NCBI GenBank assembly: GCA_018711525.1
Contig: DVIF01000013.1
Coordinates: 1 to 33,180 of the forward strand
Direction: 5' to 3'
DNA from: Candidatus Ornithospirochaeta stercorigallinarum
GTDB taxonomy: Bacteria > Spirochaetota > Spirochaetia > Sphaerochaetales > Sphaerochaetaceae
Length of the DNA: 33,180 nt
Made by a program: the position numbers and the translations under genes. This document shows, piece after piece, positions 2,997-9,163 of this stretch. The number at the start of each line of letters is the position of its first letter. The stretch's first letter is position 1. The notes under the pieces were generated by a model. The model searched no databases, was not told where the DNA came from, and saw only the letters and a list, made by a program, of their open reading frames with translations.

Positions 2997-3109
2997 TCTG
3001 GTGACCATAGCAGAGTTGAAACACACGTTCCCATCCCGAACACGTAAGTGAAACGCTCTCACGCCGATGGTACTGCGGCCCGTCCGTGGGAGAGTAGGTA
3101 GTTGCCAGC
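2997..3109 (+). rRNA. rrf: 5S ribosomal RNA, solitary second copy
   Basis: This is a 113-nt 5S gene outside any rRNA operon, lying between a cupin gene and metN. The core blocks are identical to the operon copy. Ten positions differ: three Watson-Crick pairs are replaced by other Watson-Crick pairs (385/483 against 3004/3102, 393/440 against 3012/3059, 395/438 against 3014/3057). One C-G becomes U-G (397/436 against 3016/3055). The outermost pair is lost and one change falls in helix IV. It has its own -35/-10 upstream, and a T7 run at 3110-3116 directly after the last base acts as its terminator tail. The pattern argues for a functional gene and not a decaying copy. Confidence 0.93.
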
Positions 3110-3173
3110 TTTTTTTATTTCAGTGCATCTTTTATCGCTCAAGCTGATTTAAAATATATCATCCATTTGATAA

Positions 3174-3185: not shown

Positions 3186-4178
3186 ATGGAAATTACATTA
3201 AAACATCTTAGACGTAACTACGGCGCACTTCATGCCGTTGACGACGTATCATTGAATATACCTTCCAATACGGTCTTTGGAATAATAGGACGCTCAGGGG
3301 CAGGCAAGAGTACTCTTGTGCGTCTCATTTCAATGCTTGAGCGCCCTGATGAGGGTGAGGTCTATTACGATAGAGAAAGAGTTGACAACCTTGATAAGAA
3401 ATCCCTGATAAAGGCTAGAAGAAGAATTGGTATGATATTCCAGAACTTCAATCTTTTCTCTTCCAGGAATGCAGCTGAGAACATCGCATATCCGATGGAG
3501 ATCTGCGGCATGGATAAGAAAGATATAAGGGAGAGGGTTGATGAACTTCTGGATCTTGTCGGCCTTTCAGGGCGTGGGAACGCTCCGATATCCACTCTTT
3601 CAGGGGGACAGAAGCAGAGGGTTGCAATAGCAAGGGCTTTGGCTGTAAATCCGGATATCCTGTTCTGCGATGAGGCTACAAGCGCACTCGATCCGCAGAC
3701 GACGAGGTCGATTCTCTCCCTCATAAAGGAAATCCAGAAGAAGATGAACCTTACCGTTGTAATGATCACCCATCAGATGGAGGTCGTCCGTGATTCCTGC
3801 GACTATGTTGCGGTTCTTGATTCAGGAAGAATAGTGGAAGAGGGTGCGGTGGCCGATGTGTTTGCAAACCCCAAGAGTGCGACGACAAAGGATTTCCTCT
3901 CCAATCTCACGAGTTCTCACGATTCCGTTGTAAGGTGGTCTGAGGATGGAGGAAGATACATCCTTCGTTTCAGAGGCAGTCAGACGGATGCTCCAATACT
4001 TTCTACTGTGTCGAATGAGACCGGCGCAATCTTCAACATCAGGGCCGCTGGTGTACAGACTGTCAATGGTGAGGAGATTGGAATCATGGTCTGTGATATC
4101 GGTCCTGATAAGGAGAGGGAGGAGAAGGCTGTGGCTTCTTTGTTGGAGAAAGGTATTGTCGTGGAGGAGGAGAAATGA
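3186..4178 (+). CDS. metN: Methionine ABC importer, ATP-binding protein
   Basis: This 330-residue ATPase energises methionine uptake with MetI and MetQ at the cytoplasmic membrane. The motifs are Walker A GRSGAGKS (35-42), Q-loop Q86, signature LSGGQ (138-142), Walker B ILFCDE (158-163) and switch H196. The C-terminal ~80 residues fit the NIL/ACT-like domain that in MetN binds methionine and causes trans-inhibition (family knowledge), which separates it from generic polar amino acid ATPases. The stop codon overlaps the metI start in ATGA (4175-4178), so the two are translationally coupled. It lacks a Shine-Dalgarno and is probably leaderless. Transport of D-methionine or related compounds is also possible. 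Confidence 0.93.
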   Translation: MEITLKHLRRNYGALHAVDDVSLNIPSNTVFGIIGRSGAGKSTLVRLISMLERPDEGEVYYDRERVDNLDKKSLIKARRRIGMIFQNFNLFSSRNAAENIAYPMEICGMDKKDIRERVDELLDLVGLSGRGNAPISTLSGGQKQRVAIARALAVNPDILFCDEATSALDPQTTRSILSLIKEIQKKMNLTVVMITHQMEVVRDSCDYVAVLDSGRIVEEGAVADVFANPKSATTKDFLSNLTSSHDSVVRWSEDGGRYILRFRGSQTDAPILSTVSNETGAIFNIRAAGVQTVNGEEIGIMVCDIGPDKEREEKAVASLLEKGIVVEEEK

Positions 4179-4837
4179 GCAGAATGTTTGATATCGTGTT
4201 CTCATCTACTATAGAGACACTGGAAATGGTCTTGTTTTCGACCATATTCTCCGTCCTGATCGGACTTCCTCTGGGCATAATACTGCAGATTACGGATTCT
4301 GAGGAGCACGGAGGACTTATGCCGTCTCCTGTCATCAATACGATCCTGTCGAGGATTGTAAACATCTTCAGAAGCTTTCCTTTCATCATCCTCATCATAT
4401 TGCTGATGCCGCTATCGCGTATCATACTTGGAACAGCTATCGGAACAGAGGCTACGATTGTTCCTCTTTCGATTGCCGCTGCTCCATTTGTGGCGAGGAT
4501 AGTTGAGTCCGCACTCAAGGAGATAGATCCTGGTGTCATTCAGGCTGCAAGGGCGATGGGGTCGACGAACAGGCAGATAATACTGAAGGTCATGATTCCA
4601 GAGGCGATGCCTTCCCTTGTCTCGGGCGTCACTCTTACAATCATAAACCTCATAGGGTATTCAGCTATGGCAGGAGCCCTCGGAGGAGGAGGTCTTGGGG
4701 ACCTGGCAATCAGGTATGGATATCAGAGGTTCAATCCTTCATATATGGTGGCGGCTGTGGTCGTCATCCTTGTTCTTGTCGAATTGATCCAGGTCGCAGG
4801 TAATAAGATCAGCAATCATCTGATTGCAAAACGGTGA
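4175..4837 (+). CDS. metI: Methionine ABC importer, permease protein
   Basis: This 220-residue inner-membrane permease forms the translocation pore with a second MetI copy and docks MetN. Hydrophobic segments lie at about 15-38, 60-85, 92-112, 147-172 and 190-208. The EAA-type loop that contacts the ATPase is at about 111-133 (ESALKEIDPGVIQAARAMG). Length matches the family (about 217 residues). It overlaps metN by 4 nt and is followed after 9 nt by a membrane GGDEF gene, not by metQ, which is about 3.5 kb downstream. Confidence 0.93.
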   Translation: MSRMFDIVFSSTIETLEMVLFSTIFSVLIGLPLGIILQITDSEEHGGLMPSPVINTILSRIVNIFRSFPFIILIILLMPLSRIILGTAIGTEATIVPLSIAAAPFVARIVESALKEIDPGVIQAARAMGSTNRQIILKVMIPEAMPSLVSGVTLTIINLIGYSAMAGALGGGGLGDLAIRYGYQRFNPSYMVAAVVVILVLVELIQVAGNKISNHLIAKR

Positions 4838-4846
4838 TGTTGGGAC

Positions 4847-6478
4847 ATGACGGGCGCTACACTGAAAAGGATTCTGTTTTTCCTCTCTCTGATTCTTCTG
4901 CCTCTTATAGTGTTCCAGCCTGTCTATCTCTTCCATGAATCGAGCTATAACGCTCCGTCTTCCAAAGGCTCAAGATATCTTGATGCTGATTATCATGTCA
5001 TTGAAAACGGCAGTGTGATATCCCGTAGCCTTCCTTTCTATTCCCTATCTTTTCTCAAAGGAGGTGAGTATTCTGTTGAGTTCTCCCTTCCTGTTGTCAG
5101 GGACGGGGAGGCCCTTGCCTTTCAGACGAGGGGCTGCGGGCTACGGGTGTATGTCGATGGAGAAGAGATATACTCATATGTCTATCCTGGAGGCTATGCA
5201 TATCCTTCCGTGAGAATGTATCACTCGGTTCCGCTTTATGATAGGTATTCCGGATCTTCGGTACTTGTCGAATATGAAGGAGGTGCAAGCGGACCTTTGA
5301 TGTTTGAGATCTGTGTCCCTGTGATAGGAAACACAAGTTCCAACTACCATTATTTCTTCGATCCCTATAAATGGCCGTCGGTCCTGTTGATTTCCATGAT
5401 ATCGCTAGGTGTCATGCTGCTGATCCTCTCCTTCCTGTTAAAAGGGGAGAAGAGGAGGAAATTCCTGATTTTCAGCCTTTTTGTCCTTGATATAACACTT
5501 ACGATATTCCTTGAGTCCCTGCTTTCGGAGCTTCTTATAGGGAATCCTCTGTTTTCTTCCCTTTCTGCTGTCTTCCTTCGTACCCTCACCCCTTTTCTAT
5601 GTTTATTGCTGCTTAGAAGCAATTTCTCTGATATAAAGGAATTCGCACCGTACTCGTTCTTAAGTTCTCTTGCCGCCTGCATAACGCTCTTGTTCCCTAT
5701 ATTCTCATTACTGAGCTTCTTCCGCCTTGCGGATTTCAGCATGATCTATCTGTTGCTTGAGCCATGTACGATAATATTCCTGACGGTCGCTTCGATTCCG
5801 CTCTTCAGATTCAAGAGCAAGAAGACAGGGATTTATCTTATCATCATGCTTCTTTTCCTCATAAAGAACTTTCTGCGCCTGATGCTGGCACCTTTCCTCT
5901 CTGAAGGGGTTGTCTTTGATGTGGTGAACATCATCCTCTCCTCTGTCTCATTCATAATCTGTGTCTTTGATGCAGTAAGGACGTATGCGGAGGAGAATGA
6001 GATGATAGTGAATATAAATGCCGTTTTGAGCAAAAGCCATATAGACAGCCTTTCGGGGCTTGAGAATGTCAATTCCTTCAAACTGTATCTGGAGAAGATG
6101 AAGGAGGAGCGTGGCTGCTATTATGTCATGTTCTTCGACCTGGACGGCCTTAAGGCGGTAAACGACAGCCAGGGACATCTCAGGGGTGATGAGCTGATAC
6201 GGGATTTCGGATGCGTGGTGAAAGAAAGGGTGTCGGATGGCATTTCTGCATTCCGTATCGGAGGGGACGAGTTCATTGTCATCATAGAGGGAGGGAAAGA
6301 CGGGGAGAAAATCCTTTCTTCAATTGTTTCAAAATATGAGGCGATGGATGAGAGGTATGGTGTAAGTGGTATGGGAGATGTCCTTGACCTCTCTGCGGAT
6401 CCTGATATAGCAGCTTTTTTCAAAAAGCTTGATGGCAAGGTGCTGCGTATGAAGAGGGAGAAGAATGAAAGCCGATAG
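4847..6478 (+). CDS. Membrane sensor diguanylate cyclase (7TM-type, GGDEF), first copy
   Basis: This 543-residue protein is predicted to make cyclic di-GMP from GTP in response to an extracytoplasmic signal. It has an N-terminal hydrophobic segment (9-29), an extracytoplasmic beta-rich region (about 40-165) with a YVDGEEIYSY-like strand pair, about seven membrane segments (176-378) and a GGDEF domain (about 395-540). The domain has metal-site D431, an NDSQGH block (439-444) and intact GGDEF (472-476). This resembles 7TMR-DISM receptors. No RxxD inhibitory site stands at the usual spacing. The C-terminal part is less typical: the usual ADxAMYxAK block reads LDGKVLRMK. The start has only a weak Shine-Dalgarno, so translation may be coupled to metI. 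It overlaps the next GGDEF gene by 14 nt. Confidence 0.85.
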   Translation: MTGATLKRILFFLSLILLPLIVFQPVYLFHESSYNAPSSKGSRYLDADYHVIENGSVISRSLPFYSLSFLKGGEYSVEFSLPVVRDGEALAFQTRGCGLRVYVDGEEIYSYVYPGGYAYPSVRMYHSVPLYDRYSGSSVLVEYEGGASGPLMFEICVPVIGNTSSNYHYFFDPYKWPSVLLISMISLGVMLLILSFLLKGEKRRKFLIFSLFVLDITLTIFLESLLSELLIGNPLFSSLSAVFLRTLTPFLCLLLLRSNFSDIKEFAPYSFLSSLAACITLLFPIFSLLSFFRLADFSMIYLLLEPCTIIFLTVASIPLFRFKSKKTGIYLIIMLLFLIKNFLRLMLAPFLSEGVVFDVVNIILSSVSFIICVFDAVRTYAEENEMIVNINAVLSKSHIDSLSGLENVNSFKLYLEKMKEERGCYYVMFFDLDGLKAVNDSQGHLRGDELIRDFGCVVKERVSDGISAFRIGGDEFIVIIEGGKDGEKILSSIVSKYEAMDERYGVSGMGDVLDLSADPDIAAFFKKLDGKVLRMKREKNESR

Positions 6479-8096
6479 GAGACATATCATAGCATCATGC
6501 ATATTCCTTCTCTCAATCATAGCATTGATTGCAGCTCTTTCTGTCTCGTCCTATGCTACTCTGAGACCTGTCTCAGGGTATGCAAGGGATTATGATGGCC
6601 CTGTCATGACAACCATAGATGGTGAGTATGTGGGTATGGAGTACACCCCGATCATAAGAAAGTACCTCAGACCTTTTGCCAGACTGATTTATTCGATTAC
6701 GATTCCTGATTATGTGAAAGACGGGGAGGCTGTCGCTATAAGGCTCAATTCGACCAAGTTCAATGTATATCTTGAGCAGACTCTCCTGTATTCATATTAT
6801 CCGGAGGCAGGAGAGGAGGGAAGACCTGAATACGGATATGGAACAACATTCTACATCCCCCTTCCTGATTCATCCGTGAATAAGGAGCTCAGGATTGAAG
6901 CTGTCGTGGAGCCTGCAGTAAGCGGAATCAACCTTGCCTTCATCAAATTCGGTGATTTCGCAAGCTTGGAGGTCGAAACACTGTTCTGGGAGATTGAGCC
7001 TCTGATCATTTCATATACCCTGTCATTCATGGCTTTCATCGCCTTTTTAGCCTTCTGTTTCGCAAAAGAGGCCGATACTCGTAAAAGCCTTCTTTCATCT
7101 GCATTCCTGCTTATGCTGCTCTCCCTATGGCTCTTCTTCCAGTCCCGCTCGAGACAGTACATTGTGGAAAACACAGTCCTGCCTGCAACTGTATCTAATT
7201 TCTGCATATTCTTCCTGCCATATGCACTCTATAATTATTTCATATACAACTATCCCCTGAGAAAGGAGAGAAGGCTCAGAGGGTTCTATTTTACATCCCT
7301 CTTCTTCATAGCCTGCTACTACATAGTGGGAATCCTTTCTTTCATCGGTGTGTATGGTTATTCCGAGTGTCTTACCCTTGCGACGACTTTCGTCCTTGCA
7401 TATGCGGCTCTCCTCTTCCTATATGTCTGCTATCTTTTCTTCGCGGAAAAAGAGAAGGTCGGGATCTTCCTGATAATCATCTCAATAATGATCGTAAGCT
7501 TCCTGATCGAGTGGATTCTGCTGATTCTGAAGATTGGATTGAATACCTCTGTCACCCTTGAGGTGCTTGCATGCTCTACGGTCGCCATCCTTTTCAAGAG
7601 CCTCTCCGTATATCTGCTTGAGACGAAGGAGAGGGCGGAAAAGGAAGCTGCCCTTACTGCGGTCTACAGGGACCCTCTTACGATGCTTAGAAACAGAAGC
7701 AGCTATGACAGCATAATCACTCAGCCATGGCATGGTGAGAGGTTTGTCGATGTATATGTCATAGACGTCAATAACCTGAAACAGGTGAATGACAGTCAAG
7801 GCCACTCTGCGGGGAATATGCTCCTGAAGGAGGTGGCGGAAGCAATAATCGAGACATTCCCGTATTTCAACCAGCTTGGATACAGGACGGGAGGGGATGA
7901 ATTCGTCGTCTTCTCCCCCTCATCACCGGACAGGAGCCCGGAAATCCTGACAGAAAGGCTTAAATCGAAGCTGAGTTCCAAGCATGGGGATGATGTCGTA
8001 TCAATCGGATATGTGCGCATAAATACGAAAAAAGTGAAACTCAGGGATGCTGTAGACCTGGCGGACGGTAGAATGTATGATGATAAAAAAAAGTGA
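6465..8096 (+). CDS. Membrane sensor diguanylate cyclase (7TM-type, GGDEF), second copy
   Basis: This protein is also 543 residues and shares the architecture of the preceding gene. It has an N-terminal membrane segment (8-30), an extracytoplasmic beta-rich domain (about 35-170), about seven membrane segments (180-386), the linker motif DPLTMLRNR (403-411) and a GGDEF domain with D434, NDSQGH (442-447), GGDEF (476-480) and a typical end DLADGRMYDDKK. It looks catalytically complete, with no RxxD inhibitory site at the usual spacing. It starts inside the end of the first copy with GAGGGAG at 6454-6460. Equal length, architecture and overlap suggest an old tandem duplication followed by strong divergence. 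The ligand is unknown; its position within the methionine-uptake locus is suggestive only. Confidence 0.88.
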   Translation: MKADRRHIIASCIFLLSIIALIAALSVSSYATLRPVSGYARDYDGPVMTTIDGEYVGMEYTPIIRKYLRPFARLIYSITIPDYVKDGEAVAIRLNSTKFNVYLEQTLLYSYYPEAGEEGRPEYGYGTTFYIPLPDSSVNKELRIEAVVEPAVSGINLAFIKFGDFASLEVETLFWEIEPLIISYTLSFMAFIAFLAFCFAKEADTRKSLLSSAFLLMLLSLWLFFQSRSRQYIVENTVLPATVSNFCIFFLPYALYNYFIYNYPLRKERRLRGFYFTSLFFIACYYIVGILSFIGVYGYSECLTLATTFVLAYAALLFLYVCYLFFAEKEKVGIFLIIISIMIVSFLIEWILLILKIGLNTSVTLEVLACSTVAILFKSLSVYLLETKERAEKEAALTAVYRDPLTMLRNRSSYDSIITQPWHGERFVDVYVIDVNNLKQVNDSQGHSAGNMLLKEVAEAIIETFPYFNQLGYRTGGDEFVVFSPSSPDRSPEILTERLKSKLSSKHGDDVVSIGYVRINTKKVKLRDAVDLADGRMYDDKKK

Positions 8097-8126: not shown

Positions 8127-8155
8127 TTGAATAATGAATTTTTTTAAGTTATAGT
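8127..8155 (+). promoter_or_regulatory. Promoter of the Met leader peptide and metQ
   Basis: TTGAAT (8127-8132) and TATAGT (8150-8155) are 17 nt apart, giving a predicted start near 8162. That lies 20 nt before the leader-peptide ATG. metQ therefore probably has its own transcript, separate from metNI and the GGDEF genes. A weak AT-rich hairpin (ATTCAT 8118-8123 with ATGAAT 8134-8139) followed by T6 overlaps the promoter and could also end the upstream transcript. Confidence 0.6.
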
Positions 8156-8181
8156 TGACTCATCTTAAGAAAAGGAGAGTG

Positions 8182-8250
8182 ATGAAAATGACATATTCCA
8201 ACATTTCCATGATGCACATGCTCTCCATGATGATGCCCGTCAGGGCATAG
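8182..8250 (+). CDS. Methionine-rich leader peptide upstream of metQ (22 codons)
   Basis: This short ORF has a good Shine-Dalgarno (AAGGAG, 8172-8177) and lies between the metQ promoter and metQ. It encodes 22 residues, of which 8 are Met: positions 1, 3, 10, 11, 13, 16, 17 and 18. Codons 10-18 read MMHMLSMMM, and the peptide ends MPVRA before TAG. The high density of codons for the amino acid imported by the downstream gene is the hallmark of amino-acid-responsive leader peptides such as those of trp, his and leu operons (established principle). The stop codon abuts a TGCCC-GTCA-GGGCA hairpin (8234-8247). Function as a leader is inference; it has none of the features of a stable protein. Confidence 0.7.
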   Translation: MKMTYSNISMMHMLSMMMPVRA

Positions 8251-8347
8251 TATTTCATTTATTATCAGGCACATTATTATCTACGTAACTTAAAATAAAG
8301 GCTTCGGCCTTTATGATACTTGAATTTCAGACAATCATCATAAGGAG
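8234..8347 (+). promoter_or_regulatory. Structured metQ leader: two hairpins and a Met-codon/anti-Met-codon pairing
   Basis: Hairpin A is TGCCC-GTCA-GGGCA (8234-8247), at the end of the leader ORF. Hairpin B is ATAAAGGC-TTCG-GCCTTTAT (8295-8314), a perfect 8-bp stem with a UUCG loop but no proper U-tract after it. ATCATCAT (8334-8341) is the exact complement of ATGATGAT in the triple Met codons (8227-8234) and directly abuts the metQ Shine-Dalgarno AAGGAG (8342-8347). These elements could form alternative structures that depend on ribosome position in the leader. Mechanism (translational or transcriptional) is inferred. Confidence 0.5.
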
Positions 8348-8353
8348 AGAAAG

Positions 8354-9163
8354 ATGAAGAAAATATTGGTAACATTTTTGGTTTTAGTTGTTCTGTCTGC
8401 ATCCGTTTTCGCAAACGGAGCCAAGGAGGCTAATGAGATCACAGATACAATCAGGGTTGGAGCTACTCCAGATCCCCACGGGGTAATGCTTTCCCTTGTC
8501 GTAGATGACCTTGCTGCTGAAGGCTACACGCTTGAAGTCGTTGAATTCACAGACTATGTGACTCCTAATGAGGCCCTTCAGTCAGGTGAGATAGATGCTA
8601 ACTTCTTCCAGCATCTTCCTTATCTCGAAAGCTTCAACGCAGAGCGTGGATACAACCTTGTAAGTGCTGGAGGCATCCATATCGAGCCTCTCGCTCTTTA
8701 TTCAAAGACATATTCCTCACTTGATGAGATTCCAGAAGGGGCGATGATTGCAATCCCTAATGATCCTACAAATGAAGGCAGGGCGCTTCTTCTTCTGCAG
8801 TCCGCAGGTCTTATCACACTGGCAGAGGATGCCGGTCTTGAGGCTGTTCCCCAGGATATCGTAGACAATCCCAAGGGTCTTGAATTCAGAGAGATTGAAG
8901 CTGCAACACTCCCAAGAATCCTTGAGGATGTCGATGCTGCTGTAATCAATGGCAACTATGCAATCCCTGCAGGACTCATCGCAACACGTGACGGACTTTA
9001 TGTGGAGGGTGCCGACAGCCCATATGTGAACGTAATCGCCGTTCAGCCTGGGAATGAGGAGAGCCCGGCGATCCAGGCTCTCGTAAGCGCACTTAAGAGT
9101 GACAAGGTCAAGGATTATGTCGCTCAGAGGTATCCTAACGGGGAGGTCGTTCTCGTAGACTGA
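8354..9163 (+). CDS. metQ: Methionine-binding protein of the ABC importer
   Basis: This 269-residue NlpA/MetQ-family periplasmic binding protein delivers methionine to MetNI. A Sec signal peptide (about 1-20) ends in VFA before NGAKE, pointing to signal peptidase I cleavage. There is no lipobox Cys, although MetQ is often a lipoprotein, so it is probably soluble in the periplasm. Family blocks include VGATPDPHGVML (35-46), DANFFQHLPYL, and a C-terminal half with INGNYAIPAGL. The Shine-Dalgarno AAGGAG (8342-8347) sits 6 nt before the ATG. Its own promoter, leader peptide and structured leader precede it, and a terminator follows. Methionine specificity is supported by metN/metI in the same locus. 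Confidence 0.93.
   Translation: MKKILVTFLVLVVLSASVFANGAKEANEITDTIRVGATPDPHGVMLSLVVDDLAAEGYTLEVVEFTDYVTPNEALQSGEIDANFFQHLPYLESFNAERGYNLVSAGGIHIEPLALYSKTYSSLDEIPEGAMIAIPNDPTNEGRALLLLQSAGLITLAEDAGLEAVPQDIVDNPKGLEFREIEAATLPRILEDVDAAVINGNYAIPAGLIATRDGLYVEGADSPYVNVIAVQPGNEESPAIQALVSALKSDKVKDYVAQRYPNGEVVLVD

Follow-up and report, generated by a model that had tools for sequence, protein, structure and literature searches.

The window, the whole stretch of 33,180 nucleotides that was analysed (from a draft genome of Candidatus Ornithospirochaeta stercorigallinarum, 83% complete), carries a metQ gene with a short methionine-rich open reading frame in front of it. The features are as follows.

3186..4178, + strand: metN-like ATPase gene of the same transporter as metQ (profile match)
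4175..4837, + strand: metI-like permease gene (profile match)
8127..8155, + strand: candidate sigma-70 promoter TTGAAT-17-TATAGT, with -35 at 8127-8132 and -10 at 8150-8155 (from sequence)
8171..8179, + strand: leader Shine-Dalgarno AAAGGAGAG, also the 5' strand of helix P1 (from sequence and covariation with the anti-Shine-Dalgarno)
8182..8250, + strand: leader ORF, MKMTYSNISMMHMLSMMMPVRA and stop (from sequence; Met codons conserved in relatives)
8209..8220, + strand: Met cluster 1, codons 10, 11 and 13 (from sequence and comparison)
8221..8226, + strand: anti-Shine-Dalgarno CTCTCC, codons 14-15, the 3' strand of P1 (from swap tests)
8227..8235, + strand: Met cluster 2, codons 16-18, the last AUG forming the base of hairpin P2 (from sequence and comparison)
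8229..8254, + strand: possible P2 extension GATG:TATT over a 2-nt bulge of stop-codon purines (weak in swap tests)
8233..8248, + strand: hairpin P2, ATGCCC-GTCA-GGGCAT (stem nearly invariant and compensated in some leaders, loop free)
8255..8262, + strand: U/C-rich tract 3' of the extended hairpin, without G in the window (from base composition of 95 leaders)
8294..8314, + strand: second hairpin between leader and metQ, no U tract after it, different in relatives (by eye)
8342..8349, + strand: metQ Shine-Dalgarno AAGGAGAG, no sign of sequestration in pairing swap tests
8354..9163, + strand: metQ, methionine-binding protein of an ABC transporter (Pfam, NCBIfam)

metQ starts 103 bases 3' of the leader stop. 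Its product matches Pfam Lipoprotein_9 with 308.6 bits and the NCBIfam MetQ model with E 1.3e-68 and 231 bits, below the cut-off of 374. In the window species, two GGDEF-domain genes separate metI from the metQ leader. These genes (4847-8096) are equal in length and, judged by eye, are seemingly absent from this place in several genus members. The leader lies directly 3' of the end of the metI-like gene in several other members of the genus (by eye), and in the inspected rows from other genera metQ mostly follows metI directly. The window also contains the end of a 23S rRNA gene (1-308) and two 5S rRNA genes (378-491 and 2997-3110), the second about 75 bases 5' of metN. An Rfam scan of the window gave no family at the leader and no T-box, both at gathering score.

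The initial annotation had described an ORF of 22 codons with eight Met codons including the start, six of them within codons 10-18, and this is what positions 8182-8250 hold. The Shine-Dalgarno assigned to it is likewise present, and a similar site precedes the start in 81 of 83 leaders, the exceptions being those of genomes G011 and G108. As for an own promoter, a candidate TTGAAT-17-TATAGT sequence is there, but across 93 leaders the promoter-like score is just above that of shuffled sequences (8.18 vs 7.95). The density of Met codons, which had been considered too high for chance, is indeed no accident, as Met clusters recur in the corresponding position upstream of metQ across many species, within a peptide that is otherwise free.

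Comparison of the regions upstream of metQ, proposed beforehand as a check, found a short ORF of 17-28 codons with kept Met codons and otherwise free sequence in 46 of 48 genus genomes. The exact end-of-leader pattern occurs once each in 41 of these 48. Five of the seven genomes lacking it carry a variant leader before metQ (G011, G020, G021, G027, G031); the two misses, G016 and G034, are genomes 75% and 83% complete with no MetQ match at E 1e-30. A leader precedes metQ in a further 35 genomes of other genera. MetQ was found in 131 of the 139 genomes of the order, and a script detected no leader in 49 of the 131 stretches upstream of metQ. A covariance model places the element in 83/139 genomes and in 8 of the 22 genera of the order, seven of them beyond the genus of the window. 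Model R2 matches 38 of the 40 genus genomes given. A sample of 392 genomes of the phylum, searched under stricter filters, gave 27 matches, 25 of them in this family and the remaining two weak and chance-like. The leader also occurs in records titled uncultured Spirochaetales bacterium, uncultured Spirochaetaceae bacterium, Candidatus Ornithospirochaeta stercoravium and Candidatus Aphodenecus pullistercoris, and in genome G106 it is found at up to three places. We conclude from this comparison that positions 8182-8250 hold a genuine ORF that chance does not explain.

In total 97 leaders were collected from draft genomes, 81 before the main metQ and 16 before other genes, of which 94 are distinct. 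Their relatedness inflates the counts; P1 alone was checked with 57 dissimilar leaders and with swaps within genera. Start codons are inferred, by hand for L010, G106 and G108. Fifteen model matches with no Met-rich ORF joined to the hairpin were left out (L280, L287, L288, L311-L319, L320, L307, L308). Among them are L280 on contig 63 of G076 (E 0.02 with R1 and 7.8e-4 with R2), L320 (E 0.0093) and L307 and L308 (E about 0.009). L309 (E 0.0055) and L310 (E 0.42) stay in the set, with ORF, hairpin and MetQ paralogue all present. Within a collection of 81 loci, those with no MetQ nearby were counted as chance except L065, L069 and L088, where the stretch stops short of metQ; L106, counted among the chance loci, carries a Spirochaetota title.

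Met accounts for 494 of the 1901 internal residues (26%) in the 94 distinct leaders, with 3 to 8 per leader. Upstream of P2, ATGs lie in the frame of the ORF 400 times and out of frame 12 times. The Met codons form two groups that flank a mostly serine-rich codon pair, and leaders differ in this region by whole codons (MMMSSMMMP, MSMFSMMMP, MCMSSMMMP, SMQMMMP, MCMP). Residues 2-8 of the peptide drift. ORF, frame and Met codons are thus conserved while most other residues drift. The conserved non-Met exceptions, Ser between the clusters and Pro directly after the last Met (80 of 83 leaders), coincide with the two RNA elements P1 and P2.

P1 is a helix formed by the leader Shine-Dalgarno and the codons that separate the two Met clusters. 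Cognate partners pair with -12.95 kcal/mol and swapped partners with -10.01 kcal/mol, and none of 5000 swaps was as good. The same holds for the 57 dissimilar leaders (-12.82 vs -9.88, 0/5000 swaps), and the cognate preference persists within genera. The loop of P1 is free in sequence. Once transcribed and free of ribosomes, P1 would close the ribosome site of the leader. It would thereby admit about one ribosome per leader, favouring a single reading per transcript, so that sensing would take place during transcription. Leader L195 of G108 has no Shine-Dalgarno, a start codon at about the expected transcription start, and weak P1 pairing; its mRNA may be leaderless.

The 5' arm of P2 consists of the last Met codon and the codon after it. 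The exact ATGCCC/GGGCAT stem with a four-base loop is present in 83 of 94 leaders, and 38 different loops occur among the 94. Both arms are changed together (CGC:GCG) in five of the 94, all of them upstream of the same type of MetQ paralogue, in G102, G103, G104, G105 and G140. In G020, G021, G104 and the CGC type the stop codon lies inside the P2 loop. RNAalifold on 58 leaders gave four P2 pairs only, none changed on both sides, with a covariation term of 0.04; the compensated stems come mostly from loci that were added after these first 58. With almost no covariation in RNAalifold, the argument for P2 therefore comes from its free loop and from the five stems with compensatory changes. We take P2 to be conserved as RNA, because loop, stop position and encoded residues vary while the stem stays. 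A conserved C-terminal peptide of the type MPVRA was also considered and is rejected for the same reason, as the residues vary with the hairpin kept.

From these elements we propose that the ORF is a sensory leader. When Met-tRNA is scarce, the ribosome would slow on the Met codons, lingering on the two groups ahead of the hairpin, and metQ expression would rise. We regard this as very probably correct. The comparison of relatives supports the leader-peptide interpretation of the initial annotation, and copies before metN, metA, metY and MetQ paralogues add functional evidence. Helix P1, hairpin P2 and the set of further target genes go beyond that annotation. Sensing by the Met codons is well supported by the comparative data; the output step is the most tentative part of the proposal.

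The high conservation of P2 and its flanks would also fit a new riboswitch for SAM or methionine, with conserved bases that spell AUG by accident. SAM-I riboswitches do occur elsewhere in 22 of the 139 genomes of the order, with 19 of them above the cut-off, and in 15 of 48 in the genus. SAM-I (RF00162) has no match at gathering score in the window, nor under stricter filters in the 83% complete draft genome of the window. A riboswitch is at odds with AUGs that hold one frame, with Met codons that vary by three-base steps (MMP, MMMP, MMMMP, MQMMMP, MCMP), with a kept start, stop and Shine-Dalgarno, and with free loops in both P1 and P2 and no Rfam match at the leader. We consider it highly improbable. 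Since SAM-I is present elsewhere in the order, the leader is not its sole methionine-related control, and both can coexist.

The nearly constant Pro after the last Met raises the question of an arrest peptide, in which a nascent Met/Pro peptide would stall the ribosome from the exit tunnel in response to methionine or SAM. Yet what follows Met-Pro is V, A, D, E, G, W, S, L or others (VRA, ARA, GRA, DRA, ERA, VWA, LGA and further endings), or an immediate stop (MMMP-stop), and residues 2-8 are free. The CGC-type leaders end in MMMR-stop, so that the hairpin is kept rather than the Pro. An arrest peptide is accordingly a most unlikely explanation of the conserved Met codons.

For the sensory leader proposed here, the sequence behind P2 bears on the output. 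The tract after the extended hairpin has 0.5% G and 64% T (760 bases, 95 leaders). Its tail score counted from the extended hairpin is -2.46, compared with -1.02 at random downstream places. Counted directly after P2 it is -0.64, no better than the random value of -0.96, and on this count we reject P2 as a canonical terminator. The extension, four pairs into the preceding Met codon, is weak, since 132 of 5000 swaps match the cognate pairing energy. A terminator after metQ, taken as one example, scores -4.67, and the leader tail is weaker even from the extended hairpin. A free P2 with its U/C-rich tail might act as a weak terminator.

The same tract allows a different output, in which a processing or Rho-loading site is shielded or uncovered by the ribosome on the leader, so that mRNA stability or Rho termination would be regulated. 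Positions 5-15 after P2 have 0.7% G, and G stays mostly under about 11% up to position 34. Rho is encoded, and a G-poor tract would suit it. Rho sites after terminator-less cysteine leaders are also considered in the accessible part of a 2005 study of Actinobacteria (PMC1262725). A ribosome on the Met codons, however, should not reach the tract, which leaves the direction of the effect ambiguous, and its U-richness suits a terminator tail equally. This alternative concerns the output only and is compatible with sensing by Met codons; we judge it rather unlikely.

A search for alternative pairings downstream compared cognate with swapped partners for 16 segment pairings besides P1. It showed no clear cognate preference, and no antiterminator was found among these pairings. 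The pairing of one downstream half with the other reached p 0.044 within genera, as one of 17 tests. The two Met clusters pair with downstream sequence slightly beyond shuffles (mean z -0.42 and -0.33), and for the stretch downstream of P2 the gain in folding over shuffles is small (mean z -0.22). A downstream GGGAYAUC motif that by eye looked like an attractive partner of the Met codons was rejected, since cognate partners are no better and pairing is only slightly above shuffles; the arm hardly varies, which gives this test low power. In part of the genus, a small hairpin of the type GGTCCCTnAGGGAYAUC lies downstream of P2 and a hairpin of the ACGG..CCGT type recurs nearer to metQ (for both types e.g. 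L010, L015, L023, L033, L017, L026).

The anti-Shine-Dalgarno of the leader is able to pair with any GGAG and could in principle mask the metQ Shine-Dalgarno until a stalled ribosome relieves it. There is precedent for such translational control in mycobacterial cysteine leaders, which are said to act by a stalled ribosome that unmasks a downstream ribosome site. At metQ, cognate pairing is -7.16 and swapped pairing -7.41 (p 0.943, 2000 permutations), and segments downstream of P2 pair less well with their cognate metQ Shine-Dalgarno than with swapped ones. The metQ Shine-Dalgarno thus lacks cognate pairing to the leader, and we therefore consider translational masking quite unlikely.

For the proposed sensory leader, two arrangements can be drawn. 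In the first, P2 is the off-element and cluster 2 the effective stall site: a ribosome held on cluster 2 would cover the 5' arm of P2 and block the weak terminator. The position of cluster 1 does not fit such a simple block, as a ribosome there leaves P2 free. In the second, cluster 1 is the stall site, and P2 would form in shortage as an on-element, similar to an antiterminator.

Genes other than the main metQ also carry the leader. Of these 16 copies, 15 stand before genes of methionine or peptide uptake or of methionine synthesis, and one before an oxidoreductase. Ten precede MetQ paralogues (L277, L278, L279, L284, L285, L289, L290, L291, L309, L310); profile scans of the L277 and L284 products gave MetQ models as best matches, below their cut-offs, and the other eight are assigned by likeness. 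L281 lies before a MetN-like ATPase with NIL domain (TIGR02314, 399 bits, below the cut-off of 499.7), L283 before MetY (TIGR01326, over cut-off) and L286 before MetA (NF047918, 399 bits, below the cut-off of 460.5). L192 and L194 precede a family-5 peptide-binding protein, of which only that of L192 was scanned by profile. L282 lies before the oxidoreductase (NF007880, over cut-off), divergent from the leader-metQ pair in the same genome. We take NF007880 to be of the E. coli YbdH type, and ybdH adjoins a methionine aminotransferase gene.

Targets such as MetQ paralogues, MetN, MetA and MetY are separate evidence for methionine as the signal, and they point to a methionine regulon read by ribosomes. 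We give an even chance to the fuller version of this idea, namely that the leader copies form a ribosome-run regulon of uptake and synthesis across the family in which the control codons lie in one arm of the regulatory hairpin, so that the stalled ribosome sits on that arm and a separate antiterminator is unneeded.

Two observations were made beside these targets. The MetQ paralogue of L277 seems circularly permuted: its residues 29-157 match the C-terminal half (131-257) of the MetQ profile, and its residues 194-298 match the N-terminal half (28-132) of the closely related NlpA model. Those of L278, L279, L289, L290 and L291 appear alike, the profile scan covering L277 only. Among the matches left out, L318 (contig 10 of G104, about 260-400) contains an Ile-, Leu- and Val-rich ORF of 39 codons upstream of a putative acetolactate synthase small subunit gene; it may encode a leader peptide for branched-chain amino acids within this spirochaete family.

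Trp, His, Phe, Thr, Leu, Ile/Val and Cys are the textbook cases of leaders with codon runs. Control of methionine genes, to our knowledge, seemed to be the preserve of riboswitches, T-boxes and MetJ. The enterobacterial leaders (trp, his, phe, thr, ilv, leu) are similar to the Met leader in having a short ORF with codon runs for the amino acid of the downstream pathway and the speed of the ribosome as sensor, and in the trp leader the ribosome site is closed by pairing within the leader, as P1 would do here. In contrast to them, the Met leader senses methionine, no alternative set of hairpins was found among the pairings compared, and the last control codon is itself part of the 5' arm of P2, the one hairpin that is well conserved. 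Mycobacterial polycysteine leaders share runs of codons close to the stop, a spread over several operons within one pathway and possibly a pyrimidine tract after the stop, and the G108 leader may be leaderless as well. They differ from the Met leader in amino acid and phylum (here methionine and spirochaetes) and in its Shine-Dalgarno and P1/P2 structures. The SAM-I riboswitch, the methionine T-box and MetJ also control methionine genes in other bacteria. SAM-I reads SAM, the T-box reads uncharged tRNA and MetJ is a SAM-bound repressor, whereas the apparent sensor of the Met leader is the translated ORF.

In its accessible text, the 2005 survey of Actinobacteria describes cysteine runs close to the stop codon together with possible Rho tracts, reports that a conserved terminator hairpin is lacking, calls its own Rho-site prediction weak, and finds no conserved RNA structure before methionine operons (PMC1262725). 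A 2010 survey, as far as its accessible text goes, covers leader peptides in Proteobacteria and Actinobacteria, adds one in Firmicutes and notes a T-box before a methionine transporter (PMC2965389). Further related literature, likewise consulted in its accessible parts, is PMC1183508, PMC13236596 and PMC9031893. Among the papers listed by searches of the open-access PMC literature no Met-codon leader turned up, a scope that most subscription papers fall outside. What is new here is apparently methionine as the sensed amino acid within the known principle of leader-peptide attenuation.

Methionine is a natural gap among codon-run leaders because scarce methionine also limits initiation. Low methionine would presumably slow initiation in general, that of this leader included, which counts against the proposal. 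A Met-codon leader makes it testable how a sensor functions when initiation and elongation both need the sensed amino acid. It would extend leader-peptide control to spirochaetes, and the compact P2 hairpin may represent an unusually simple attenuator layout.
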